DNA of 64,000 nt from Candidatus Pseudothioglobus aerophilus (lineage in GTDB: Bacteria > Pseudomonadota > Gammaproteobacteria > PS1 > Pseudothioglobaceae). Below are positions 34,891-47,653 of the stretch, in pieces. The stretch is taken from assembly GCA_014384565.1 (NCBI GenBank), contig JACNFO010000030.1, positions 1 through 64,000 of the forward strand, given 5' to 3'. The translations under genes and the position numbers were made by a program. The notes under the pieces are model-generated. The model was given only the letters and a program-made list of their open reading frames with translations, was not told where the DNA came from and made no database searches. Position 1 is the first letter of the stretch; the number at the start of each line of letters is the position of its first letter.

Positions 34891-36111
34891 TTAGCTAGTT
34901 CTTTCAGCGACCCTTAATCTTTTAATTGGTCTCTCGTCTATGAAGACATGAATCAGTGCTGTAATTGCTGCAATAATCGCAGCCCACCACCACACCTGGT
35001 TGTATGACCCTGTTGTATCAAAAAGGTATCCGCCTAGCCATACGCCTGTGAATGAGCCAATTTGGTGGTTCAAAAAAACAATACCATATAAGGTGCCCAT
35101 AAATCTCAATCCAAACATCTGCGCGACTAGGCCAGAAGTAGGAGGGACTGTTGCTAGCCAAAGCAACCCAGTTGCAAAGGAGAATGCATAGATTGTAAAA
35201 GTTGAAATTGGAATTAAAAGAAATAAAACAATCACAATTGACCTTGCGCCATATATGACAGCAAGTATCCATTTCTTTGAATAAATACCTGAAAGGTGAC
35301 CCGAAACTAAAGAGCCAAAAATATTACTAAGACCAATAATTGCTAGGCTTGCTGCAGCAATTGAGCTGTCAAAACCCTTGTCTGCAAGGTATGAAGGCAT
35401 ATGAACCGTGATAAATGCTAACTGAAAGCCACAAACAAAAAAACCTGCAATTAAAAGCCAATAATGAATATGTCCTGACGCCTCATTAAGGGCCTCTTTG
35501 AGGTTTTGAGAGGTCTCATTATCAATATCACTGTTCGTTTTTTCATCACCTTTAAATACTGGCGCAAAAAGAATCATCGAAAGTGCGCCTATTGCCATTA
35601 TTATTAATGCTGTTTGCCATCCATAAGCAACAAGAAATTCTCGCGCAACAGGAATAAAAAGGAATTGCCCAGCAGAGCCTGCAGCAGTTCCAACACCTAA
35701 GGCCAGGGCTCTTTTTTCAGGGCTAACCATTCTTGCCATCGCAGGAAGAATAACCCCCAGCCCAGTTCCAGCAATTCCCATTCCTATAAGTATTCCAGCG
35801 CCTATATGAAGACTAACAAAGCTGTCTGCAGTGGCTGTAATATATAGCCCTAAAGAATAAAGAATACTTCCAACTACAATTACTCTTGCAGTTCCAAACT
35901 TATCTGCAAATGCGCCTGCAAGCGGTTGAGTTAAGCCCCAAAACAGATTTTGTAAGGCTAATGAGAAAGCAAAAACTTCACGCCCATAGCCAAAGGTTTC
36001 AGAAACTGGTTTTAGAAAAAGCCCCAGGGAGGATCTAAAGCCAAAATTAATAGCTAACAGGATGCAAGCCAAAGCAATAGCGAGACTTATTATTTTTTTA
36101 TGTTGATTCAT
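34891..36111 (-). CDS. MFS transporter (monocarboxylate/OFA-like)
   Basis: 406 residues with twelve hydrophobic helices and a central cytoplasmic loop. The start at ATG 36111 (MNQHKKIISLAIAL) is chosen over longer frames because the segment upstream (to 36192) is not membrane-protein-like. NFGFRSSLGLFLKPVSETFG and LAGAFADKFGTARV (motif A region) suit carriers of organic anions such as oxalate-formate or monocarboxylates. The substrate is not determined. The 475-base stretch upstream holds the riboswitch region of metF. Confidence 0.8.
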   Translation of the reverse strand: MNQHKKIISLAIALACILLAINFGFRSSLGLFLKPVSETFGYGREVFAFSLALQNLFWGLTQPLAGAFADKFGTARVIVVGSILYSLGLYITATADSFVSLHIGAGILIGMGIAGTGLGVILPAMARMVSPEKRALALGVGTAAGSAGQFLFIPVAREFLVAYGWQTALIIMAIGALSMILFAPVFKGDEKTNSDIDNETSQNLKEALNEASGHIHYWLLIAGFFVCGFQLAFITVHMPSYLADKGFDSSIAAASLAIIGLSNIFGSLVSGHLSGIYSKKWILAVIYGARSIVIVLFLLIPISTFTIYAFSFATGLLWLATVPPTSGLVAQMFGLRFMGTLYGIVFLNHQIGSFTGVWLGGYLFDTTGSYNQVWWWAAIIAAITALIHVFIDERPIKRLRVAERTS

Positions 36112-36386
36112 ATAAATACTATTATCTATAGTTGGGAAGTATAACCATAATTTAAAACATTTTGGTATTTTAAGAAAACTATTACACATCAAATGTATTT
36201 TAGAATTTGAAGAAATCGATGACTTGTCACAATATGCTAAGTTATATGTGTTTCTGTTAATGCATATGATTTTTTTTTGGCTAATAAGTAACTTAATAGA
36301 AAATAATTCTAATAATTTATAGTTAATCTAGAAACAAAATTCTTTTTTTTTATGCAATAAAAATAAACATTATTAATTACTATAAT

Positions 36387-36415
36387 TTGGAAAATTAACA
36401 ATCAGATTGTATTAC
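36387..36415 (+). promoter_or_regulatory. Candidate promoter of the riboswitch-metF transcript
   Basis: TTGGAA (36387-36392) and TATTAC (36410-36415) are 17 bases apart, each with four of six consensus matches, and would start RNA just before the riboswitch. Another TATAAT-like sequence lies at 36381. The AT-rich stretch 36193-36386 shows no gene. Confidence 0.35.
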
Positions 36416-36426
36416 AGTTTTAAACC

Positions 36427-36488
36427 TGCCAAGGGGCGTTGCATTGAGATTCACCTCAATCAGGCTTGGCAATTATAACGACGCTCAT
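36427..36488 (+). promoter_or_regulatory. S-adenosylhomocysteine (SAH) riboswitch
   Basis: The layout matches the SAH riboswitch. P1 is GCCAAG (36428-36433) with CTTGGC (36465-36470). The conserved GGGGCGTTGCA (36433-36443) and CAGGCTTGGC (36461-36470) resemble consensus G-AGCGCTGCA and CAGGCTCGG. A variable hairpin ATTGAG/CTCAAT (36443-36460) sits between, and the pseudoknot pairs GGGCGT (36434-36439) with ACGCTC (36481-36486). SAH riboswitches switch on ahcY, metH and metF when SAH builds up; metF follows here. The 3' pseudoknot strand can pair instead with the start region of a leader ORF (36511-36518). Confidence 0.85.
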
Positions 36489-36512
36489 TTTTTTAACTTA
36501 ACGGGAAAATAA

Positions 36513-36590
36513 ATGAGCAGCTCTAACATTCAAAATAATTACTTTAAAGTAACCAATCTCAATTTAGCGTACTTAGGTGAAAAAATATGA
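36513..36590 (+). CDS. Leader ORF between SAH riboswitch and metF (25 residues)
   Basis: ATG 36513 opens a 25-codon frame (MSSSNIQNNYFKVTNLNLAY then LGEKI) that ends at TGA 36588-36590, overlapping the metF start ATG 36587 (ATGA). AAATGAGC at its start is exactly complementary to GCTCATTT (36483-36490), part of which is the riboswitch pseudoknot strand. The likely role is translational: when SAH is bound the leader start is free, ribosomes translate the leader and restart at metF. The Shine-Dalgarno (CGGGA) is modest, and the peptide is not recognised. Confidence 0.45.
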   Translation: MSSSNIQNNYFKVTNLNLAYLGEKI

Positions 36591-37540
36591 GTTTATATAT
36601 GCACAATCTATTAACTCATGTACAGCACCCCAAGTCACCAAAAGAGTATCAAGCTGAGGAAGATTCGGACGCTATAAGGGTTTCAGAATATTGGGGTAAA
36701 AAAACTAATCAAATCCAAAGTCCAAAAATTAGTTTTGAGTTTTTCCCGCCCAGGTCGGTCTCTGCAAAAAAATCTCTAAAGGAGACGCACCTTAAATTAA
36801 GTAGTATAAATCCTGAGTATTATTCGGTAACATTTGGTGCGGTTGGAACATCTCAAGATGCTACATTTGATACTATAGTTAATCTTTCACAAGATACTGA
36901 AATTCCAATTACACCTCATCTCACTTGTGTAGACACAAACAAAAAACAAGTCACTGATTTAATTGATAAATATATTAGCTATGGTGTAAGTCAGGTGATG
37001 GTTCTCAAAGGCGATACTCCGAGCAAGCCTTTACATAAAGGTGACTTTGAATATGCAAATGAGATGGTTAAATTCATTAAAGAACATTATGACAATATAG
37101 ATATTCTTGTTGCAGCTTACCCTGAGAAGCATCCCCACTCAATGGATGTTGGAGCAGATATTGATTTTTTTGTCGACAAAGTTAATTCAGGAGCAACTCA
37201 GGCTATCACACAATATTTTTATAATATTGATGCTTATTTTCACTTTATAGATGAACTACAAAAACGCAATATTGATATTCCGATTACTCCTGGCATAATG
37301 CCAATAACAAATTTTGAGCAACTAATAAACTTTTCAAAAACTTGTGGTGCTGAAATTCCAGCATGGATTTTTAATCGTCTAAAACTTTATAGGCATGATT
37401 CAGAGAGCTTGAGAGAATTTGGGCAAGATGTTGTAAGTGAAATGTGTATGAATCTTAAGGAAAATGGAGTAAATAGTTTTCATTTCTACAGTATGAATAA
37501 GGTCGAACCAGTATTATCGTTATCGAAAATAATTATATAA
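36587..37540 (+). CDS. metF: 5,10-Methylenetetrahydrofolate reductase MetF
   Basis: 317 residues. The catalytic TIM barrel begins around residue 46 with ISFEFFPPRS. PHLTCVD, VLKGDTP, AYPEKHPHS, AITQYFYN and PGIMPITNF are diagnostic for the FAD enzyme. It interconverts methylene-THF and methyl-THF, serving methionine synthesis or, run backwards, methyl oxidation. It has an unusually long N-terminal extension of about 45 residues. It is preceded by an SAH riboswitch and a leader ORF. The next gene lies 117 bases away, so metF may be its own unit. Confidence 0.92.
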   Translation: MSLYMHNLLTHVQHPKSPKEYQAEEDSDAIRVSEYWGKKTNQIQSPKISFEFFPPRSVSAKKSLKETHLKLSSINPEYYSVTFGAVGTSQDATFDTIVNLSQDTEIPITPHLTCVDTNKKQVTDLIDKYISYGVSQVMVLKGDTPSKPLHKGDFEYANEMVKFIKEHYDNIDILVAAYPEKHPHSMDVGADIDFFVDKVNSGATQAITQYFYNIDAYFHFIDELQKRNIDIPITPGIMPITNFEQLINFSKTCGAEIPAWIFNRLKLYRHDSESLREFGQDVVSEMCMNLKENGVNSFHFYSMNKVEPVLSLSKIII

Positions 37541-37657
37541 AAGGAATAGATGAATACTAATAAAAAATCACTTTTTCTCCGATTTACCATTTTGAGTAAT
37601 GATTTCCATTAATATACTTAATGCTTACTTTGATTAACTTAATATAGAGGTTTAGTA

Positions 37658-38371
37658 ATGCGCATACTTGTTTTTCAACATGTCGACTGTGAACATCCTG
37701 GCTCTTTAAGACAGTTTTTAGCCGAGGATGGGATAGAGTGGGATGCAGTGTATCTTCATCGAGGCGATAAGATTCCTAGCTTTGATAATTATGATGCGCT
37801 TTGGGTAATGGGCGGCCCAATGGATGTCTGGGATATAGAGGAAAACCCCTGGTTGGTTGATGAAAAAGCAGCAATTAGGCATTGGGTTAGGGATTTAGGT
37901 AAACCATATTTAGGTCTATGTTTAGGCCATCAGTTGCTTGCAGATGCCCTTGGAGGAACATGTGGTCCTCAAAAAATACCTGAAATTGGCGTTCTTGAAG
38001 TTGAACTTACTGATGAGGGAAAGTCAGATCCACTTTTCAAAGGCACAGCTCATCATCAGCAATGCCTTCAATGGCACTCTGTTAGGGTCGCACAAGCTCC
38101 AGAAGGTGCTGTTATTTTAGCTAAGTCAGATGCCTGCTCTATTCAGGCAATGCGGATAGGAGTAAATGCATGGTCCATGCAATATCACGTTGAAATAGAG
38201 TCAGATACTGTCGAAAACTGGGGCGCTATCCCTGCTTATGCAGAAGCTTTAATAAATACACTTGGCCAGGGCGCATTGTCAGATCTTAAAAAAAATACTG
38301 ATGAAAATATGAGCCAATGTTTGAGTTGCGCAAAACAAATTTATAAAAACTTTATGCAAATAATGGTTTAG
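37658..38371 (+). CDS. Class I glutamine amidotransferase-like protein
   Basis: 237 residues with the class I amidotransferase triad: GLCLGHQLLADALGG (nucleophile Cys about residue 88) and MQYHVEIESDT (His and Glu). It resembles the GMP-synthase-like GATase1 group, without a synthetase domain. It may hydrolyse glutamine or another gamma-glutamyl compound for a partner enzyme. It lies between metF and the corrinoid operon. Its 3' end, including the last 14 codons or so, is duplicated in the next intergenic region. Confidence 0.8.
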   Translation: MRILVFQHVDCEHPGSLRQFLAEDGIEWDAVYLHRGDKIPSFDNYDALWVMGGPMDVWDIEENPWLVDEKAAIRHWVRDLGKPYLGLCLGHQLLADALGGTCGPQKIPEIGVLEVELTDEGKSDPLFKGTAHHQQCLQWHSVRVAQAPEGAVILAKSDACSIQAMRIGVNAWSMQYHVEIESDTVENWGAIPAYAEALINTLGQGALSDLKKNTDENMSQCLSCAKQIYKNFMQIMV

Positions 38372-38642: not shown

Positions 38643-39347
38643 ATGAGTGATGAAGACGATTTCGACTTAAATGACTTAGATGATAAAGAATTAGTCGAGC
38701 AGATTCAAGATGACCTTTATGACGGTCTTGATGCAGAAGTCACTGAAGGCACGGAAATTTTGCTTGCTCGGGGCTGGGACGCTAACGATGTATTAGGTGA
38801 AGCTTTGGTTGGCGGCATGAAAATTGTAGGAATAGACTTTAGGGACGGTATTTTGTTTGTACCTGAGGTTCTCAAGTGTGCCGGCGCAATGAAGGGTGGA
38901 ATGGGAATACTTAGGCCTATCCTTGCAGAGTCTGCAGAAGACACTTCATTAGGGAAGTTTGTAATTGGAACCGTTAAAGGCGATATCCACGACATTGGTA
39001 AAAACTTAGTTGCTATGATGTGTGAAGGCGCAGGGTTTGAGGTTATTAATTTAGGTATCAATAATCCTGTAGAAAATTATCTTGAAGCCATTGATGAGCA
39101 TGAGCCAGTAATTGTTGGAATGTCGGCCTTACTTACAACAACTATGCCTTACATGGGCGTTGTTGTTGAAGAGATGGAAAAAAGAGGTATGCGTAAAGAT
39201 ACTCATATAATGTGTGGCGGTGCTCCTCTGAACCAAGAATTTGCTGATTCAATTGGAGTTCCTGCATATGGCCGTGATGCCGCAAGAAGTGCTGAAATGG
39301 CTGAGGAGCACGTTCTTGGTTTGCGTAATAAGCGTGATCATCGATAA
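38643..39347 (+). CDS. Corrinoid-binding methyl carrier protein (MttC/MtbC type)
   Basis: 234 residues. A helical cap domain (about 15-95, with PEVLKCAGAMKGGMGILRP) precedes a Rossmann B12-binding domain with GDIHDIGKNL (DxHxxG, lower axial His116), GMSALLTTTM and MCGGAPL. It carries the methyl group between the MttB-type and MtgA-type methyltransferases of this cluster. The N-terminal stretch is unusually acidic (DEDDFDLNDLDDKE). Its 3' end overlaps the DUF1638 gene by 14 bases. Confidence 0.9.
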   Translation: MSDEDDFDLNDLDDKELVEQIQDDLYDGLDAEVTEGTEILLARGWDANDVLGEALVGGMKIVGIDFRDGILFVPEVLKCAGAMKGGMGILRPILAESAEDTSLGKFVIGTVKGDIHDIGKNLVAMMCEGAGFEVINLGINNPVENYLEAIDEHEPVIVGMSALLTTTMPYMGVVVEEMEKRGMRKDTHIMCGGAPLNQEFADSIGVPAYGRDAARSAEMAEEHVLGLRNKRDHR

Positions 39348-39978
39348 GAAAAATACTGATAAGGTTAAAAAAAGATTAGTTTTAGGCTGTGGCGCATTAG
39401 TATACGATCTTCTGAGGTTAATCAAACAAAATCCATCACTCTCAGATAAAGTAAATTTGCAGTGTTTGCCGGCCAGCTGGCATAACAGCCCTCAATTAAT
39501 TGCTCCTGGTGTTGAAGAATATTTGTCTGAGAATGCCCATCTTTATGAGGAAGTATATATTGCGTATGCAGACTGCGGAACTGGAGGCGCTCTTGATAGA
39601 GTGTTAGAAAAGTTTGATGCAAAACGTATAAAGGGTGCACACTGTTATGAGTTTTTTGCTGGAACAGATGTTTTCGAGCAGTTATCAGAAGAAGAGTTAG
39701 GTACTTTTTATTTGACAGATTATTTGGTTAAAAATTTTAATAGGATCATGATTAAAGGCTTGGGTCTAGATAAGCACCCCGAGCTATTTGATGTTTATTT
39801 TGAGCATTATAAAAAATTAGTATATTTGGCTCAAACTGAAAATGAGCAGTGGCAAAAAGATGCTCAGCAGTATGCAAAAGATTTTGGCTTTGAGTATGAA
39901 TATAGACTTGTAGGAACGGGAAGCCTTGATAGTGTTTTTGAAGAAATTGATATCCAGCCTTTGGAAATAAAAGATTAA
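39334..39978 (+). CDS. DUF1638 family protein
   Basis: About 214 residues. GTG 39334 is chosen because upstream codons lie within the corrinoid gene and the family's start (KRLVLGCGALVYDL) comes soon after. LGCGAL, LPASWHNSPQLI, YADCGTGGALD and GAHCYEFFAG keep cysteines and a histidine that could bind a metal. DUF1638 genes are typically found beside corrinoid methyltransferases but have no established function. Here it sits directly after the corrinoid protein; maturation, metal delivery or repair of the corrinoid are possibilities. Confidence 0.8.
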   Translation: MIIDKKNTDKVKKRLVLGCGALVYDLLRLIKQNPSLSDKVNLQCLPASWHNSPQLIAPGVEEYLSENAHLYEEVYIAYADCGTGGALDRVLEKFDAKRIKGAHCYEFFAGTDVFEQLSEEELGTFYLTDYLVKNFNRIMIKGLGLDKHPELFDVYFEHYKKLVYLAQTENEQWQKDAQQYAKDFGFEYEYRLVGTGSLDSVFEEIDIQPLEIKD

Positions 39979-39991
39979 TGGAGTATGAAAA

Positions 39992-40042
39992 ATGTTTAAG
40001 GAATTAATTATAAAAAATAGCTGGAAAGCTAGGCTGGGTTAA
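39992..40042 (+). CDS. Candidate 16-residue micro-ORF
   Basis: ATG 39992 to TAA 40042 encodes MFKELIIKNSWKARLG in the 66-base gap between the DUF1638 gene and the MetF-like gene, behind a GGAG-like site. It ends two bases before the next start, so it could serve translational coupling. Unconfirmed and unrecognised. Confidence 0.2.
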   Translation: MFKELIIKNSWKARLG

Positions 40043-40044
40043 TA

Positions 40045-40950
40045 ATGTCATTATTAAATCTCTTTTCTTCTAAAGAAGAAATCCCAAAAGTAAGTGATCA
40101 TCTTAAGGAATTTTTAACTGATTTTTCGATTGAAGTTATGCCTCGCACTGCGGCCAATATTGAAAGCTTTGAAGAGTTGCTTCCAAAAAAAACCAGAGTT
40201 TATATTGCTCATATTGAAGGTGTTCCTATTGGGGAGATGGTGCAGACAGCCAAACGGATAAGCCGCGAAGGGTTCAATGTTATGCCTCACTTTCCAGCTC
40301 GAATTATTAAGGATAAGAGTGCCTTAGAAGAGTGGATAAATATTTACCAAGGGGAGGCGGGCATCAATCAAGCTTTGCTTTTAGCTGGTGGTGTGGATAA
40401 ACCACAGGGTGTGTTTGAAGATTCAATGCAGCTGGTAGAAACAGAGCTATTTGAAAAATATAATTTTAAAAACTTACACTTTGCAGGTCACCCTGAAGGT
40501 AATAAAGATATCGATAATGATGGCTCAAATAAAAATGTTGATGACGCACTGCAATGGAAGCAAAAATATAATGAGCGCTCAGATATTGATATAGCAATAA
40601 CAACCCAGTTTTGTTTTGAAGCAGAGCCAGTAATCGAGTGGGCAAACTCATTGACTAATAATGGAATAAATATACCAATTCATATTGGAGTAGCTGGACC
40701 CGCAAAACTTCAAACTTTAATTAAGTTTTCAATTGCTTGCGGAGTGGGGCCTTCATTAAAGGTGTTACAAAAAAGAGCAAAAGATGTGAAGAAACTGTTA
40801 CTTCCATTTGATCCAAATGACTTTTTAGAAACGTTAGCTAAACATAAAAAAGAAAATCCAAAATTTAATATCAGTAATATTCATTTTTTCCCTCTAGGCG
40901 GCATAAATACCAATGCTTCATGGATTAAAAATGCAATTAATAATTCATAG
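40045..40950 (+). CDS. MetF-like methylenetetrahydrofolate reductase paralogue
   Basis: 301 residues with a MetF-type TIM barrel but a divergent sequence: SIEVMPRTAANIESF at the start of the barrel, MPHFPARIIKD, LLLAGGVDKPQG, HFAGHPEGN, ITTQFCFE and IPIHIGVAGPA. Compared with the MetF at 36587 it lacks the FFPPR motif (here EVMPR) and the PGIMP motif. Family members in methylotrophic and betaine-using bacteria are thought to oxidise methyl-THF. In this operon it probably serves the oxidative direction, while the other MetF is controlled by SAH. The FAD- and folate-binding residues cannot all be verified by eye. Confidence 0.8.
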   Translation: MSLLNLFSSKEEIPKVSDHLKEFLTDFSIEVMPRTAANIESFEELLPKKTRVYIAHIEGVPIGEMVQTAKRISREGFNVMPHFPARIIKDKSALEEWINIYQGEAGINQALLLAGGVDKPQGVFEDSMQLVETELFEKYNFKNLHFAGHPEGNKDIDNDGSNKNVDDALQWKQKYNERSDIDIAITTQFCFEAEPVIEWANSLTNNGINIPIHIGVAGPAKLQTLIKFSIACGVGPSLKVLQKRAKDVKKLLLPFDPNDFLETLAKHKKENPKFNISNIHFFPLGGINTNASWIKNAINNS

Positions 40951-40964
40951 AAGGAGTAAGTAAA

Positions 40965-41861
40965 TTGACAACAACAACACTATCCTCAGCATCAAAAGAG
41001 GTAACTATTGGCTTTGGCCATCCATTTGTAATGATTGGCGAAAGAATAAACCCAACTGGCAGAAAAATTCTAGCGGCAGAAATGAAGGTTGGTGATTACT
41101 CACGTGTAGTTGCCGATGCTATTGCGCAGGTTGCTGCAGGCGCCCAGATGTTAGACATCAATGCAGGCATCCCTCTTGCAGATGAGCCAGCAATTCTTGC
41201 TGAAGCAATAAGGCGCGTTCAGGCTGTTGTGGATGTTCCTATTTCAATTGACTCATCAATTATAGAGGCCCTTGCATCTGGCCTAGAAGCGTATCAGGGA
41301 AGAGCACTAGTAAATTCTGTTACGGGCGAAACTGAAAATTTGGAGCGCGTGCTGCCACTAGTTAAAAAGTATGGTGCAGCAGTTGTAGCGATCTCTAATG
41401 ATGAAACTGGTATTAGTGAAGATCCAAACGAGCGTTTTAAGGTCGCAAAAAAAATTGTTGAACACGCTGCAGACTATGGAATTAAGCCAGAAGATGTTGT
41501 TGTAGACCCATTAGTTATGCCAATTGGCGCGATTTCTCAAGCCGGCAATCAAGTTTTTGAGTTAGTTAGGAAGCTTCGCAGTGAGTTAAAAGTTAATACA
41601 ACGTGCGGGGCATCAAATGTTAGTTTTGGTTTGCCTCAACGAAACGGTATTAATAATGCTTTCCTTCCTATGTTAATTGCAGCAGGAATGACTTCTGCAA
41701 TTGTAAACCCATTACACCCAGAGTTAGTTCAGGCAATTAGAGCTGGAGATGTTTTAACGGGTGTTGATGATGGTTGTGGAAGTTGGATTAAAGCCTATAG
41801 AGAACCAACAGCTGATGGAAGTGATGTTAGGGATGGGAGACGCCGCAGAAAACGTGCGTAA
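40965..41861 (+). CDS. Methyltetrahydrofolate:corrinoid methyltransferase (MtgA-like)
   Basis: 298 residues from TTG 40965, behind GAAGGAGTAAG. It has the pterin-binding (DHPS/MeTr) fold: MIGERINPTGRK, AQMLDINAGIP, PISIDSS, VNSVTGE, VVVDPLVMPIGA and NTTCGASNVSFGLP. It transfers the methyl group between the corrinoid protein and THF. The last 20 residues are a basic tail ending DGRRRRKRA, absent from typical family members and similar to tails on two other proteins of this operon. Confidence 0.88.
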   Translation: MTTTTLSSASKEVTIGFGHPFVMIGERINPTGRKILAAEMKVGDYSRVVADAIAQVAAGAQMLDINAGIPLADEPAILAEAIRRVQAVVDVPISIDSSIIEALASGLEAYQGRALVNSVTGETENLERVLPLVKKYGAAVVAISNDETGISEDPNERFKVAKKIVEHAADYGIKPEDVVVDPLVMPIGAISQAGNQVFELVRKLRSELKVNTTCGASNVSFGLPQRNGINNAFLPMLIAAGMTSAIVNPLHPELVQAIRAGDVLTGVDDGCGSWIKAYREPTADGSDVRDGRRRRKRA

Positions 41862-41869
41862 CAATAACA

Positions 41870-42280
41870 ATGACTAGTATTGAATATAAAGGATCTTGCG
41901 TTTGTGGCCAAACAAGCTATAGGGCCTTTGATTTGGCTGACGTATCCTATTGCCACTGCGTGCAGTGTCGAAAAATGACTGGTCACTATATGGCTGCATG
42001 CCAGGCCAAAAGAGATAAAATTAAAATTATTGGAAAAATTAAATGGTTTTATACTCATGAGGAATCAAGGCACGGTTTTTGTGATAATTGTGGAGCACAT
42101 ATGTTTTGGCAAAACGACAGTTTGCCAACTATAAGCATAACTGCCGGTAGTTTAGACGATGCAAAAAATTTGACTGTGAAACATAATATTTTTACTGAAG
42201 AAAAAGGGTGTTATTACACAATTAGTCCTAACGAGCGTCAAATTGAGGGCTATGGTAATAGCCATAATAGTAAGGAGTAG
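41870..42280 (+). CDS. GFA/CENP-V family protein (glutathione-dependent formaldehyde-activating type)
   Basis: 136 residues with the zinc-binding pattern of the GFA family: GSCVCGQTSY, YCHCVQCRKMTG and GFCDNCGAHMFW. These proteins bind zinc and, in some, glutathione; the founding member was reported to speed formation of S-hydroxymethylglutathione, though that activity is debated. Its place inside a demethylation operon, eight bases after the MtgA-like gene, suggests a link to formaldehyde or thiol chemistry, but this is inference. Confidence 0.8.
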   Translation: MTSIEYKGSCVCGQTSYRAFDLADVSYCHCVQCRKMTGHYMAACQAKRDKIKIIGKIKWFYTHEESRHGFCDNCGAHMFWQNDSLPTISITAGSLDDAKNLTVKHNIFTEEKGCYYTISPNERQIEGYGNSHNSKE

Positions 42281-42284
42281 TATT

Positions 42285-44225
42285 TTGGAAGATGTCCAGC
42301 AAGTTTGCTTTACCCCATCAGGCCGCCAATTCAAGGGTGAGGCTGGAGATACTTTGCTGCAAGTTGCTCAAGATGCAGGTGTAGCTATACGCTCATTATG
42401 TGGTGGCTATGGTCAGTGCCATCAGTGCTGGATTGAGGTTTCAGAGGGCTCGCATCCTAAATTTGGTGTTGATTGTAAGCCTGAAAATGTTAGCGGAATT
42501 ACCAGTCTAGAAAAACAATTAATCATCGATAATCCAAGTTACAAAGGTAAGCGGCTCGCATGTCAAACTTGTATCCAGGGTGACTTAGTAATAGATGTTC
42601 CTGAAGATAGCCAAGAACATAAGGCCTATATAAGTAAAAAAAATGCTAAACAAGATTACTCTATTTCAAGTTCAATCACTCTTTTAGATTGCACGCTTGA
42701 AGAGTCAACATTGGATGAAAACCCCTCCGCCTCAGAAAACCTTTTGGCGCAACTTGAAAAGCAAGGTGTCAAGGCAAGTATTGACTTCAACCTATTAAGA
42801 GGTTTGCAACCTTTAATTCATGAAACTAAGGGTAATCTTACTGTTGCAGTTCGGGATAAAAATCAAATTGTTGCAGCCTATCCTCAAGGGAGTCATAAAG
42901 TATTTGGGGGTGCAATCGATATTGGTTCCACTACTTTAGCGCTTTATGTTTACGATTTGAAAGATGGTGAATTAGTTTTTGAGTCTTCTGCAATGAACCC
43001 ACAGATTCGATTTGGCGAAGACTTGATGAGTAGGGTTTCTTATGTGATGATGAATAAGGGCGGTGATGAGAAATTGACTGCTGCAGTAAGAACTAAAATT
43101 ACAGAGATGCTCCATGAGGCTTGTGAAAATCTAGAAATTGAGTGGGATAAATTATTAGAGGTTGTGTTAGTTGGTAACCCAATTATGCACCACATATTTT
43201 TTGGGATTTCGCCTGTAGAGCTTGGTCAAGCTCCGTTTACATTATCAATAAGAAGCTGGCTTGATGTTGATGCAAAAGACTTGGGTTTTGATTTACATCC
43301 TAAAACACGACTATCATTTTTGCCTTTGATAGCGGGCCATGTTGGTGCTGATACTGCTGCTGCTTATCTTAGTCAAATGGATACAATGCATTCTGAAACT
43401 ACCTTGCTGGTTGATATTGGAACCAATGCAGAAATTATGCTTGCTAAAGATGGGCGAGTATATGCCACATCCTCTCCAACTGGGCCAGCCTTTGAGGGCG
43501 CTGAAATTAGTTCTGGAGTGAGAGCAACCTATGGGGCTATCGAGAGAGTAAGGATAGATAAAGACACTCTGAAGGTTCGATTTAAAGTGATTGGATGTGA
43601 TGCTTGGTCAGATGAGCCCGACTATGAAATGCTTAAAATGCATGCAGTTGGTATATGTGGAAGTGGAATTATTGAGGCTATTGTGGCATTTGCAGAGGCA
43701 GGTATTATTGATCAAAGCGGACTTTTTGTTGAATCAATTGCACCAGAACTTTTCTCAAAGAAAGGAAATACGTCTCGTTTTTTATTAGTTGAGCAAGGCG
43801 ATAAATCGATTTATGTAGAGCAAGTAGATATTCGCTCTATTCAATTGGCTAAGGCCGCATTATCTGCGGGCGTTTCTATACTGATGGATTATCTCGAGTG
43901 CACAGAGTTTGATAAAGTCTTGTTAGCAGGGGCTTTTGGTGCTCACTTAGATGCCAGATATGTTGCTCTTTTGGATATCATTCCAACCTCAACTGCAGAA
44001 AAGATTATTTCAGTAGGCAATGCTGCGGGTGTTGGTGCTAGCGCTGCATTATTAGATGTTAATAAGCGGAAAACAATTATAGATGCAGTAGACAAAGTTG
44101 TTAAAATTGAAACTGCAACTGAGCCAAAATTCCAAGAGTATTTTGTTGATGCAATGAAATTCAGTGTATCACCAGTAAAACAACAGCAAACCAAAAAAGT
44201 TAGACGCCGTAAAAGAGTGCCTTAG
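42285..44225 (+). CDS. RamA-like corrinoid reductive activator (2Fe-2S, ASKHA ATPase)
   Basis: 646 residues from TTG 42285, chosen because TAAGGAG (42271-42276) is correctly spaced; upstream codons overlap the GFA gene. An N-terminal 2Fe-2S ferredoxin domain has LCGGYGQCHQCW plus RLACQTC (C-x5-C-x2-C...C). The large C-terminal part is an ASKHA ATPase (DUF4445), with GAIDIGSTTLALYVYD, LLVDIGTNAEIML and LLAGAFGAHLDARY. Such proteins use ATP to re-reduce Co(II) corrinoid to Co(I). The C-terminus ends in a basic tail, QTKKVRRRKRVP. Confidence 0.9.
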   Translation: MEDVQQVCFTPSGRQFKGEAGDTLLQVAQDAGVAIRSLCGGYGQCHQCWIEVSEGSHPKFGVDCKPENVSGITSLEKQLIIDNPSYKGKRLACQTCIQGDLVIDVPEDSQEHKAYISKKNAKQDYSISSSITLLDCTLEESTLDENPSASENLLAQLEKQGVKASIDFNLLRGLQPLIHETKGNLTVAVRDKNQIVAAYPQGSHKVFGGAIDIGSTTLALYVYDLKDGELVFESSAMNPQIRFGEDLMSRVSYVMMNKGGDEKLTAAVRTKITEMLHEACENLEIEWDKLLEVVLVGNPIMHHIFFGISPVELGQAPFTLSIRSWLDVDAKDLGFDLHPKTRLSFLPLIAGHVGADTAAAYLSQMDTMHSETTLLVDIGTNAEIMLAKDGRVYATSSPTGPAFEGAEISSGVRATYGAIERVRIDKDTLKVRFKVIGCDAWSDEPDYEMLKMHAVGICGSGIIEAIVAFAEAGIIDQSGLFVESIAPELFSKKGNTSRFLLVEQGDKSIYVEQVDIRSIQLAKAALSAGVSILMDYLECTEFDKVLLAGAFGAHLDARYVALLDIIPTSTAEKIISVGNAAGVGASAALLDVNKRKTIIDAVDKVVKIETATEPKFQEYFVDAMKFSVSPVKQQQTKKVRRRKRVP

Positions 44226-44246
44226 TTATAAATTAGGAGAAATGTA

Positions 44247-45791
44247 ATGGCTAGAGAAAGAAGAAGACGTAGAGGCGGTACAGAGGATTCTGAAGCACAA
44301 GAAATTCCTAAAGCACCTGCATATATAAAAAGAAAAATTCCCCACTACAGTATTCTCAGTGATGATGACCTTAGTATTATTGAAGAAAATGCTGACACTA
44401 TTTTAGAAGAGATTGGTATTGTTTTTTCTGAAGACCAAGAGGCGCTTGATATTCTTAAAAAAGCCGGCGCTAGTATTAACGGTGAGAGAGTTAGATTTCC
44501 AAAAGGAATGTGCCGCAAATTAATACAAGATAACGCTCCAAAGCAGTTTACTCAATTCGCTCGTAATCCCCAGAGAAATGTTGAAATTGGTGGTGATAAT
44601 ATGGTGTTAGTTCCTGCTTATGGCCCTCCTTTTGTTCATGATCTTGATGAGGGTCGACGTTATGCAACAATAGAGGATTTTAGGAATTTTATCAAACTTG
44701 CTTATATGTCAGATAATATTCATCACTCCGGTGGTACTATTTGTGAGCCAGTAGACTTGCCAGTCAATAAGCGCCACTTTGATATGGTTTATAGTCATAT
44801 TAAATACTCAGATAAAGCCTTTATGGGCTCTGTTACTGCAGCTGAGAGGGCTCAGGACACTGTTGATATGGTCAAAATAGTATTTGGTGATGATTTTGTC
44901 GATAAAAATTGTGTACTAATAAGTTTGATTAATGCAAGCTCTCCAATGTCCTTTGATGCCACTATGCTGGGAGCACTTAAAGTCTATGCAAGAAACAATC
45001 AGGCAACAATTGTAACCCCATTTATTGTTGCTGGTGCGATGGCTCCAACAACCGCAGTAGGTGTTGCAGCTCAAAGTCTTGCGGAAGGGCTAGCAGGCAT
45101 GGCATTTGCTCAACTCATCAGGCCCGGCACACCTGTTATTTATGGTAATTTTGTAACGGCAATGTCTATGAAATCTGGCGCTCCAACTTTTGGAACTCCT
45201 GAGGCTGCGCACATGATGAATATTTCTGGGGCTTTAGCCAGAAGACTTGGCGTTCCATTTAGGAGTGGTGGTGGCTTTAATGGCGCCAAAATGCCTGACG
45301 CTCAAGCTGGCTATGAGGCAGCTAATACAATGCAAGCAACTCTAAACGCAAGTGTTAATTTTAATTTACATACTGCTGGCTGGTTGGAAGGTGGTTTATG
45401 TATGAGCTATGAGAAATTCATAATGGATGCTGATCAAGCAGGCATGATGAGAGTATCTGCAGAGGGAATTGATATGAGCGAAAATGGTCAAGCAATGGAT
45501 GCAATTCGTGAAATTGGCGCTATGTCTGATGATGTACCCAAGCATTTTCTGGGGTGTGAGCATACTAAAAAGAATTTCAAGAGCGCTTTTTATATGTCAG
45601 AGGTTCTTGATGATAATAGTTTTGAGCAGTGGGTTCAAGACGGCTCAAGAGACACAGCAATGATTGCTAATGGTATATACAAAAAAATGCTGTCTGAGTA
45701 TGAACTGCCCCCACTTGATCCAGCTATAGATGAAGCTTTATTAAAATATATTAAAGATCGCAAAGATAGTTTTGAAGATTCAAATATTTAA
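44247..45791 (+). CDS. MttB-family methyltransferase without pyrrolysine
   Basis: 514 residues of the trimethylamine methyltransferase (MttB, COG5598) family, a TIM-barrel enzyme that moves a methyl group from a quaternary or tertiary amine to a corrinoid protein. Landmarks include YGPPFVHDLDEGRRYATIED, ILEEIGIVF, SGGTICEPVD and HTAGWLEGGLCMSYEKF. There is no in-frame amber codon, so it belongs to the non-pyrrolysine branch, whose known members demethylate glycine betaine, proline betaine, carnitine or butyrobetaine. The N-terminus is a basic MARERRRRRGG tail. The gene closes the corrinoid operon; 182 bases without a visible gene follow. Confidence 0.9.
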   Translation: MARERRRRRGGTEDSEAQEIPKAPAYIKRKIPHYSILSDDDLSIIEENADTILEEIGIVFSEDQEALDILKKAGASINGERVRFPKGMCRKLIQDNAPKQFTQFARNPQRNVEIGGDNMVLVPAYGPPFVHDLDEGRRYATIEDFRNFIKLAYMSDNIHHSGGTICEPVDLPVNKRHFDMVYSHIKYSDKAFMGSVTAAERAQDTVDMVKIVFGDDFVDKNCVLISLINASSPMSFDATMLGALKVYARNNQATIVTPFIVAGAMAPTTAVGVAAQSLAEGLAGMAFAQLIRPGTPVIYGNFVTAMSMKSGAPTFGTPEAAHMMNISGALARRLGVPFRSGGGFNGAKMPDAQAGYEAANTMQATLNASVNFNLHTAGWLEGGLCMSYEKFIMDADQAGMMRVSAEGIDMSENGQAMDAIREIGAMSDDVPKHFLGCEHTKKNFKSAFYMSEVLDDNSFEQWVQDGSRDTAMIANGIYKKMLSEYELPPLDPAIDEALLKYIKDRKDSFEDSNI

Positions 45792-45973
45792 TAATTTTAA
45801 TTTTCATATTTATTATAATTCAAGCAGTTATGAATTTAATTATTAAAGTGTGATTGATTTTGTAAGATAATGTTCCGACTATTATATATAAAGCTAAAGA
45901 GCTATTTTCACTTGAAAATTACAGGTGTTATTGTTCTTTATTTTTTTACTTTCATGGGTATTTAGGAGAAAAA

Positions 45974-47653
45974 ATGAGTGAGTATAAAACAGATATTGAT
46001 ATTGCCAGAGAGGTTACCGGTGAACACATTAATGACATTGGTGCAAAACTCAATATTGATCAATCTGACTTGGTGCCTTTTGGGCATGACAAGGCCAAGA
46101 TTTCATGGGGCGCTATAGACGCAGTCCAAAAGAATAAAAATGGCAAGCTCATTCTGGTTACTGCTGTAACGCCTACACCAGCTGGCGAGGGTAAGACAAC
46201 TACTTCTGTTGGTCTTACAGATGGCCTTAATAAGATTGGCAAGCAAACAACAGTTTGCCTCCGTGAGCCAAGTTTAGGACCATGTTTTGGTATGAAAGGT
46301 GGAGCTGCTGGTGGCGGTTATGCTCAAGTAATCCCAATGGAAGATATTAATCTTCATTTTACTGGTGACTTTCATGCAATTACTTCAGCGCATAGCTTGC
46401 TTTCTGCAATGATTGATAATCACATTTACTGGGGAAATTCAACAAATATAGATAGCAGAAAAGTAGTATTTCGCCGCGTTGTTGATATGAATGATCGCTC
46501 TTTAAGAACAATTACATCTTCTTTGGGCGGTTCTACAAATGGTTACCCGCGTGAAGATGGTTTTGATATTACTGTTGCTTCTGAAGTTATGGCTATTTTT
46601 TGCCTGTCACAAAACTTGGCAGAGCTTGAAGAAAAATTGGGAAATATCATAATCGCCTATACTCGTGATTTAACGCCCGTAAGAGCAAAACAAATTAATG
46701 CTCATCATGCAATGACCGTTCTACTAAAGGATGCATTTAGACCAAATTTAGTTCAAACTTTAGAGGGCAATCCTGCGCTGATTCACGGCGGCCCATTTGC
46801 AAATATAGCTCATGGTTGTAATTCAGTTATTGCTACAAAGACAGCGCTTAAATTATCGGATTATGTTGTAACAGAGGCTGGATTTGGAGCTGATTTAGGT
46901 GCAGAAAAATTCTTTGATATTAAATGCCGCAAAGCAGGACTTGCTCCTGATGCCGTTGTTTTAGTTGCAACAGTTAGGGCTTTAAAGCATCAAGGCGGCG
47001 TCGCTAAGGAAGATTTAAATAATGAAAATACTGATGCGCTTGGCCAAGGCTGTGTGAATCTTGGAAGGCATATTCGTAACCTCAGCCAGTTTGGAGTCCC
47101 ACTTGTCGTTGGTATTAATAAATTTGTATCGGATACTGAAGCTGAATTTCAAGTAATCAGAGATTATTGTGAGCAGTTTAATGTAGAAGTGAGTGTTACC
47201 AGTCACTGGGAACATGGTGGTGAAGGCGCAATTGACTTAGCAGAAAAGGTAGTTAAGCTAGCTGACTCGGGTACTTCGCAATTCAAAACATTGTATGATG
47301 ATGAGTTATCTCTATTAGAGAAAGTAGAAACTATTGCTAAAAAACTCTATGGTGCAGATGAGGTTTTAGCCGATAAAGTTATTAGGGCTGAACTTGCTAG
47401 GTATCAAGATAACGGTTTTGGTCATTTACCGGTTTGTATCGCCAAAACACAGTATAGTTTTTCTACTGATCCTCAATTATTAGGCGCCCCTACTGGACAC
47501 TCAATGTCGATTCGAGAAGTTAGGCTTTCAGCAGGTGCTGAGTTTGTTGTAGTGGTTTGTGGTGCAATTATGACTATGCCAGGCTTACCAAGAGTTCCTG
47601 CAGCAGATAAGATTAAGCTGGACGAACATGGGCTAGTGCAAGGTCTTTTTTAA
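45974..47653 (+). CDS. fhs: Formate-tetrahydrofolate ligase Fhs
   Basis: 559 residues with the ATP-binding [36 protein letters not shown] and [14 protein letters not shown]. The enzyme interconverts 10-formyl-THF plus ADP and Pi with formate plus ATP. Beside the demethylation operon and the formate dehydrogenase it most likely runs toward formate, yielding ATP. AGGAG precedes ATG 45974; fdhD follows after three bases. Confidence 0.95.

Follow-up and report, generated by a model that had tools for sequence, protein, structure and literature searches.

An ahcY-derived relic ORF between an SAH riboswitch and metF as a putative coupling leader in Candidatus Pseudothioglobus aerophilus

A 25-codon open reading frame derived from the N-terminus of ahcY separates an SAH riboswitch from metF in Candidatus Pseudothioglobus aerophilus, and the mechanism that we propose, in which an SAH-responsive ON switch is relayed to metF through this ahcY-derived leader, is probably the correct reading of the locus. 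The locus lies in contig JACNFO010000030.1 (GenBank assembly GCA_014384565.1), of which positions 1 to 64,000, hereafter the window, were analysed. The aptamer, the ahcY origin of the leader, the conserved OFF hairpin predicted over its start, its overlap with metF, the hairpin predicted over the metF start and the movement of the whole as one unit are established at the level of sequence and comparison with relatives.

According to the proposed mechanism, an ancestor of the Thioglobus group would have acquired, upstream of metF, a copy of the segment that begins with the riboswitch and ends near codon 25-40 of ahcY. The riboswitch would have kept as its direct target the ahcY start codon with the inherited OFF hairpin, and the ahcY fragment would have decayed to a short open leader whose stop overlaps the metF start (ATGA). 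Without SAH, GCTCATTT would pair with AAATGAGC and close the leader start, while the metF start would be shut by its own hairpin (36585-36621), so that metF expression would be low. With SAH, the pseudoknot would take ACGCTC and the leader start would open; ribosomes would then translate the leader to its stop within the metF hairpin, melt this hairpin and re-initiate on metF. On balance, we lean towards capture of a riboswitch by a new gene, with the original start codon and the initial codons of the former target carried along and this relic kept as an obligatory coupling leader.

The aptamer and the hairpin over the leader start

A preliminary description of this DNA had proposed an SAH riboswitch before metF, and a search with Rfam covariance models bore this out: the aptamer (RF01057) was found at 36425-36493 on the forward strand with 47.6 bits, against a gathering score of 37 (E 1.1e-5), and the alignment covered the full model (positions 1-78 of 78). 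It was the sole Rfam match above any gathering score within the window, and none of the 14 control genomes searched with RF01057 gave a match. Sequence and Rfam alignment place the pseudoknot strands at 36434-36439 (GGGCGT, +) and 36481-36486 (ACGCTC, +), the latter exactly where it had been described, with one G-U pair between them. The linkage to the SAM cycle that goes with RF01057 is present, as metF lies downstream.

SAH loci in the genus and family are found directly 5' of ahcY, with the exception of four (and of one truncated by a contig end). These four precede metF: that of the window and those of G018 (AG-319-K19), G012 (SAT186) and G010 (Candidatus Thioglobus sp. REDSEA-S12_B1). About 40 nt 5' of the window aptamer, TATAAT (36381-36386, +) is a candidate -10 element of the metF copy, which a promoter consensus scan did not list because it has no -35 match; the same hexamer occurs at a similar site in G018, G012 and G010, and in the ahcY copies it lies immediately 5' of the aptamer. 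We infer that the locus is a genuine SAH-type ON switch, for which both the binding of SAH and the direction of switching are presumed.

The 3' strand of the pseudoknot overlaps GCTCATTT (36483-36490, +), which is complementary to AAATGAGC (36511-36518, +), and both the coordinates and the pairing reported earlier proved correct. By folding, these are the arms of an OFF hairpin whose 3' arm contains the leader start codon. A candidate leader Shine-Dalgarno sequence, GGGA (36503-36506, +), lies within the hairpin loop region, and AGGAAA or GGGAAA is kept in the ahcY copies. The hairpin (36481-36522) reaches -11.2 kcal/mol, where dinucleotide shuffles average -3.4 (z -4.4, 0/500). In folding that leaves out the pseudoknot itself and proteins, the probability that the window leader start is unpaired rose from 0.00 in the free sequence to 0.58 with the pseudoknot strands masked. 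Across the ten genus loci folded, the corresponding values for the leader or ahcY start were 0.00-0.01 and 0.23-0.62, and the OFF hairpin was predicted in all ten, so the pairing is kept in relatives. Moreover, a helix of the pseudoknot 3' strand was found at P<=0.05 against shuffles in 25 of the 26 SAH loci of the genus.

In the ahcY loci of the genus, the start codon lies 19-26 nt 3' of the aptamer and the same hairpin (GCTCAT with ATGAG) is predicted. As judged from sequence and folding, ahcY genes of the genus normally use this start-sequestering hairpin as their expression platform; it was inherited with the copied segment, and start sequestration is therefore not unusual in itself. The sequestration model of the preliminary description withstood the tests made, but the hairpin belongs to the ahcY platform and is not a device special to the leader; what is unusual is that metF captured the riboswitch along with start codons, and the proposed relay to metF through a relic.

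Origin of the leader and history of the locus

The 25-codon ORF described earlier (36513-36590, +; MSSSNIQNNYFKVTNLNLAYLGEKI) is real, but its derivation from the N-terminus of ahcY, of which it is a decayed copy, had gone unseen. Aligned to the AhcY of G011 (MSNSIIDNNDYKVADISLADFGRK) it scores 56, against a maximum of 45 in 5000 shuffles, and it is the best AhcY match among the 576 small ORFs of the window (runner-up, 37). The G012 leader, MSNSPKKNNDFQIANLKLSGLINNYKLANTNLASIGEKK, aligns with the AhcY of the same genome, MSNSSIDNKDYKVTDLNLDGLNNDYKVADINLADFGRKE, ungapped over 39 residues, with a score of 99 and a maximum of 51 in 5000 shuffles. Similarity to AhcY was also significant for the G018 leader (1/5000 shuffles) and was not significant in the shuffle test for that of G010. 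Homology between metF-type and ahcY-type copies begins near the first base of the aptamer. With 25 codons and no Pfam match, the leader is no complete AhcY enzyme; the full-length ahcY of this genome is found at G000:C6, with an SAH riboswitch of its own (G000:C6:88467-88535).

The leader frame is intact in the relatives G018 and G012, where it spans 33 and 39 codons, respectively, as the earlier reading of a coupled leader would have it. The leader peptides diverge strongly among loci, and a conserved functional peptide was rejected as the main reading on account of this fast drift and of the lack of a meaningful family match. The G010 locus (L035 / L078, G010:C31, LURN01000037) differs in that its metF has no ordinary in-frame start codon and is one base out of frame with the leader, an A7 tract lying between them; this frame break is either an assembly error or real slippage. 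As a separate observation, the N-terminus of AhcY carries a tandem repeat (FKVADLNLD..NDYKVADINLA) in many species of the genus, e.g. at L064:5034-6446, and lacks it in others.

Comparison with G023 delimits an inserted block of ~1455 bases (36153-37607, +) that holds promoter, riboswitch, leader and metF: homology to that genome ends at 36152 and restarts at 37608. The flanking MFS (34891-36192, -) and amidotransferase (37658-38371, +) genes are ~115 bases apart in relatives. Since the block is an insert between genes that are adjacent in relatives, the promoter, riboswitch, leader and metF moved as one unit. Family-wide, metF lies near tRNA-Leu(CAA), without a riboswitch and with a short N-terminus. 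In G018 and G012 the gene is still at this ancestral site (oadA, tRNA-Leu, metF, hemX-like gene) and has gained there the riboswitch, the leader and a 45-residue N-terminal extension. At the corresponding site in the genome of the window (G000:C31:15684-16485) the gene is missing, but 37 bases matching its 3' part persist; judging by this remnant, metF has been lost from the site. G008 has the same remnant, and G009 a weaker or shorter form of it.

The 45-residue MetF extension is present only in the cassette carriers (G000, G012 and G018), and no match for it was found in the genus outside them. A tree built on 134 DNA columns did not separate single from multiple captures. In the AhcY tree all cassette carriers fall within one 15-species clade but are dispersed inside it, which points to a mixture of gain, loss and transfer. 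No MetF relatives were found among viral contigs.

Coupling of the leader to metF and alternative readings

The downstream gene (36587-37540, +) is metF, encoding methylenetetrahydrofolate reductase, as had been stated (TIGR00676, 300.6 bits; equivalog cut-off, 293.7). The ATGA overlap between leader stop and metF start, also reported before, is found at 36587-36590 (+) and recurs in G018 and G012. Inside the leader, AGGTGA (36575-36580, +) is a candidate metF Shine-Dalgarno sequence, with counterparts at the same site and with good spacing in G012 (AGGTGA) and G018 (GGGAGG). A predicted hairpin at 36585-36621 (+; arms 36585-36593 and 36613-36621) closes the metF start. It was found in all three intact loci (z -3.1 in the window, -4.0 in G018 and -3.3 in G012) and was the same in either modelled SAH state, although pairing of the metF AUG is incomplete in G018 (0.34 unpaired in a short fold). 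Of 15 further gene starts in the window, a single one came close to this degree of closure. As the leader stop lies in the 5' arm of this hairpin, a ribosome finishing the leader would be expected to melt it.

The intact SAH-leader-metF loci number three, all from uncultured genomes. Their leaders differ by indels of 3, 15, 24 and 42 bases, each a multiple of three, and contain no internal stop codons. A synonymous excess was seen in two of the three leader comparisons (Fisher P ~0.0008 and ~0.0007) and not in the third, and a codon-position test gave no significant result (P 0.14-0.69). The SAH-independent metF hairpin in the three loci, together with the indels in multiples of three, makes translational coupling the best reading, and the evidence from these three short sequences, too few for proof, favours coupling of metF to the leader. 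The coupling suggested by the preliminary description, as a prediction from comparison and folding, survived the tests made; translation of the leader and dependence of metF on that translation would be its two working parts. An intrinsic terminator was looked for at the locus and none was found, and a terminator-based platform was accordingly rejected.

Alternatively, the ahcY-derived ORF could be a fossil without function, a decaying spacer behind which metF would be translated independently from its own Shine-Dalgarno sequence; SAH, if acting, would do so through mRNA stability or through Rho-dependent termination when the leader is untranslated. The strong differences among the leader peptides and the well-spaced AGGTGA or GGGAGG would suit such a spacer, and a stop-free frame is not rare by chance (22% after 37 random changes). 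Against it stand the metF start hairpin in 3/3 loci, the conserved ATGA overlap, the lengths of the indels and the synonymous excess, and we consider it unlikely. A loss of ligand binding by the metF copy of the riboswitch, which would leave a constitutive or dead leader, could be read from the scores of the metF-type aptamers (47-49 bits, the lower end) and from the G-U wobble in the pseudoknot. All of these copies nevertheless exceed the RF01057 cut-off, the GGGGCG pseudoknot variant of the metF copy is also present in the ahcY copies of G005, G007, G011, G012 and G018, and aptamer and hairpin are conserved while the leader peptide drifts, all of which renders such a loss very improbable. 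Direct closure of metF by the riboswitch, with CTCATTTTT pairing to the metF start AAAAATGAG and no part for the leader, is scarcely credible and was rejected: the metF start regions of G012 and G018 are complementary to CTCATTTTT, but this complement is interrupted at the metF start of the window, and in the fold ensemble the anti-start strand, whether taken as GCTCATTT or as CTCATTTTT, pairs with the leader start at a probability of 0.97-1.00 and with the metF start at 0.00.

Control of metF by SAH would also suit the neighbourhood of the gene. A gene cluster occupies 38643-47653 of the window, with profile matches to mtgC (38643), a metF paralogue (40045), mtgD (40965), a corrinoid activase (42243), an mttB/mtgB-like gene (44247) and fhs (45974); G000:C24:37254-38036 was considered along with it. 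No full-length MetH was found in the genome of the window (91% complete), which has only its modules, as separate genes. The arrangement is similar to the system of a split methionine synthase and a glycine-betaine demethylase described in PMC12478193. An SAH-responsive metF beside it is plausible because SAH build-up would call for methyl-tetrahydrofolate for the remethylation of homocysteine, and this need may be the rationale for the control of metF. SAH sensing would thereby be tied to metF next to a split methionine-synthase/glycine-betaine cluster in a marine lineage. Elsewhere in the window, the ORF at 287-1360 corresponds only to the C-terminal half of a B12-independent methionine synthase (TIGR01371, 78.6 bits, below the cut-off).

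SAH loci across the class and comparison with known systems

Across the class, about 120 SAH loci were surveyed. Almost all of them have ahcY as the direct target; metK takes this place in six and a MetH-like gene in three. Relic leaders were sought by eye where the main gene was distant, and among those loci no other relic of a former target gene was found. An alternative helix with changed base pairs (GTTCAT/ATGAAC) occurs in a Cycloclasticus. Outside the genus, 35 of 112 loci reached P 0.05 in a simple helix test, indicating that expression platforms vary.

One look-alike was found in G038 (L222, G038:C14; aptamer at G038:C14:14502-14576, -), where a 27-codon ORF has its start inside the anti-pseudoknot hairpin and ends in an ATGA overlap with metK; a second hairpin over the metK Shine-Dalgarno region suggests a hairpin cascade. 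Overlap and frame are absent in its sister G195, so this ORF was rejected as a coupled leader and read as a by-product of the anti-pseudoknot hairpin. A further arrangement was seen in L098 (N1D-Bin_17), where metK and ahcY are each preceded by an SAH riboswitch, the two aptamers lying 1.3 kb apart, and metF follows.

The origins of bacterial uORFs are rarely traceable. Here, related genomes still show ahcY as the donor, metF at its ancestral position and lacking a riboswitch, the cassette in place there and a cassette that was transplanted later. If the coupling is real, the locus provides a worked example of a translational riboswitch that changed its gene with its platform intact, the route being to retain the old start and first codons and then to couple. 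It would likewise represent a transferable riboswitch-ahcY'-metF cassette and the first SAH riboswitch coupled through a leader, and would make visible one way in which riboswitch-controlled uORFs can emerge; it predicts that similar relic leaders have been overlooked elsewhere.

Each half of this arrangement is known; judged by the literature searched, their union under an SAH riboswitch and a uORF whose origin can be traced appear to be new. SAH riboswitches (RF01057) before ahcY, as at G000:C6 and across Gammaproteobacteria, share the aptamer, the pseudoknot and a SAM-cycle target with the window locus, and those of the genus share the start-sequestering alternative hairpin as well. At a canonical ahcY locus, however, the start sequestered is that of ahcY itself, whereas in the window it is that of a relic ORF, with the enzyme gene one ORF downstream. 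Together, ahcY and metF form the core SAH-riboswitch regulon, and in almost every lineage examined metF belongs to an ahcY operon (Leyn et al. 2014, PMC4239095). In those operons metF is under an SAH riboswitch, as in the window, but follows a complete ahcY and not merely its first codons.

Upstream ORFs and displaced initiation regions under riboswitches of other classes offer further parallels. In the S. meliloti metA SAM-II system (PMC9373788), the controlled initiation region also lies well upstream of the start of a methionine-pathway enzyme; there, AUG1 and AUG2 are in frame, without a distinct leader ORF whose stop overlaps the next start. The Mbox of M. tuberculosis pe20 resembles the window locus in having a translational platform that targets a short uORF, rv1805A, a homologue of which exists outside the riboswitch context; it differs in responding to Mg2+ and in Rho-dependent termination, and its uORF is not said to stem from the beginning of an earlier target gene (PMC12810186). 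The proposed mechanism resembles that of M. tuberculosis ppe2, where a B12 riboswitch controls a short uORF (uPPE2) that overlaps the downstream gene by AUGA, and this gene is expressed mainly by termination-reinitiation (Kipkorir et al. 2024, PMC11260477). Control of the uORF start by alternative pairing, here predicted, and a stop/start overlap are found at the metF locus too. The ppe2 system belongs to another ligand and class, is an OFF switch and has a uORF of untraced origin, but it is experimentally proven, whereas the ahcY-derived leader of metF is put forward from sequence, with its ancestry in view.
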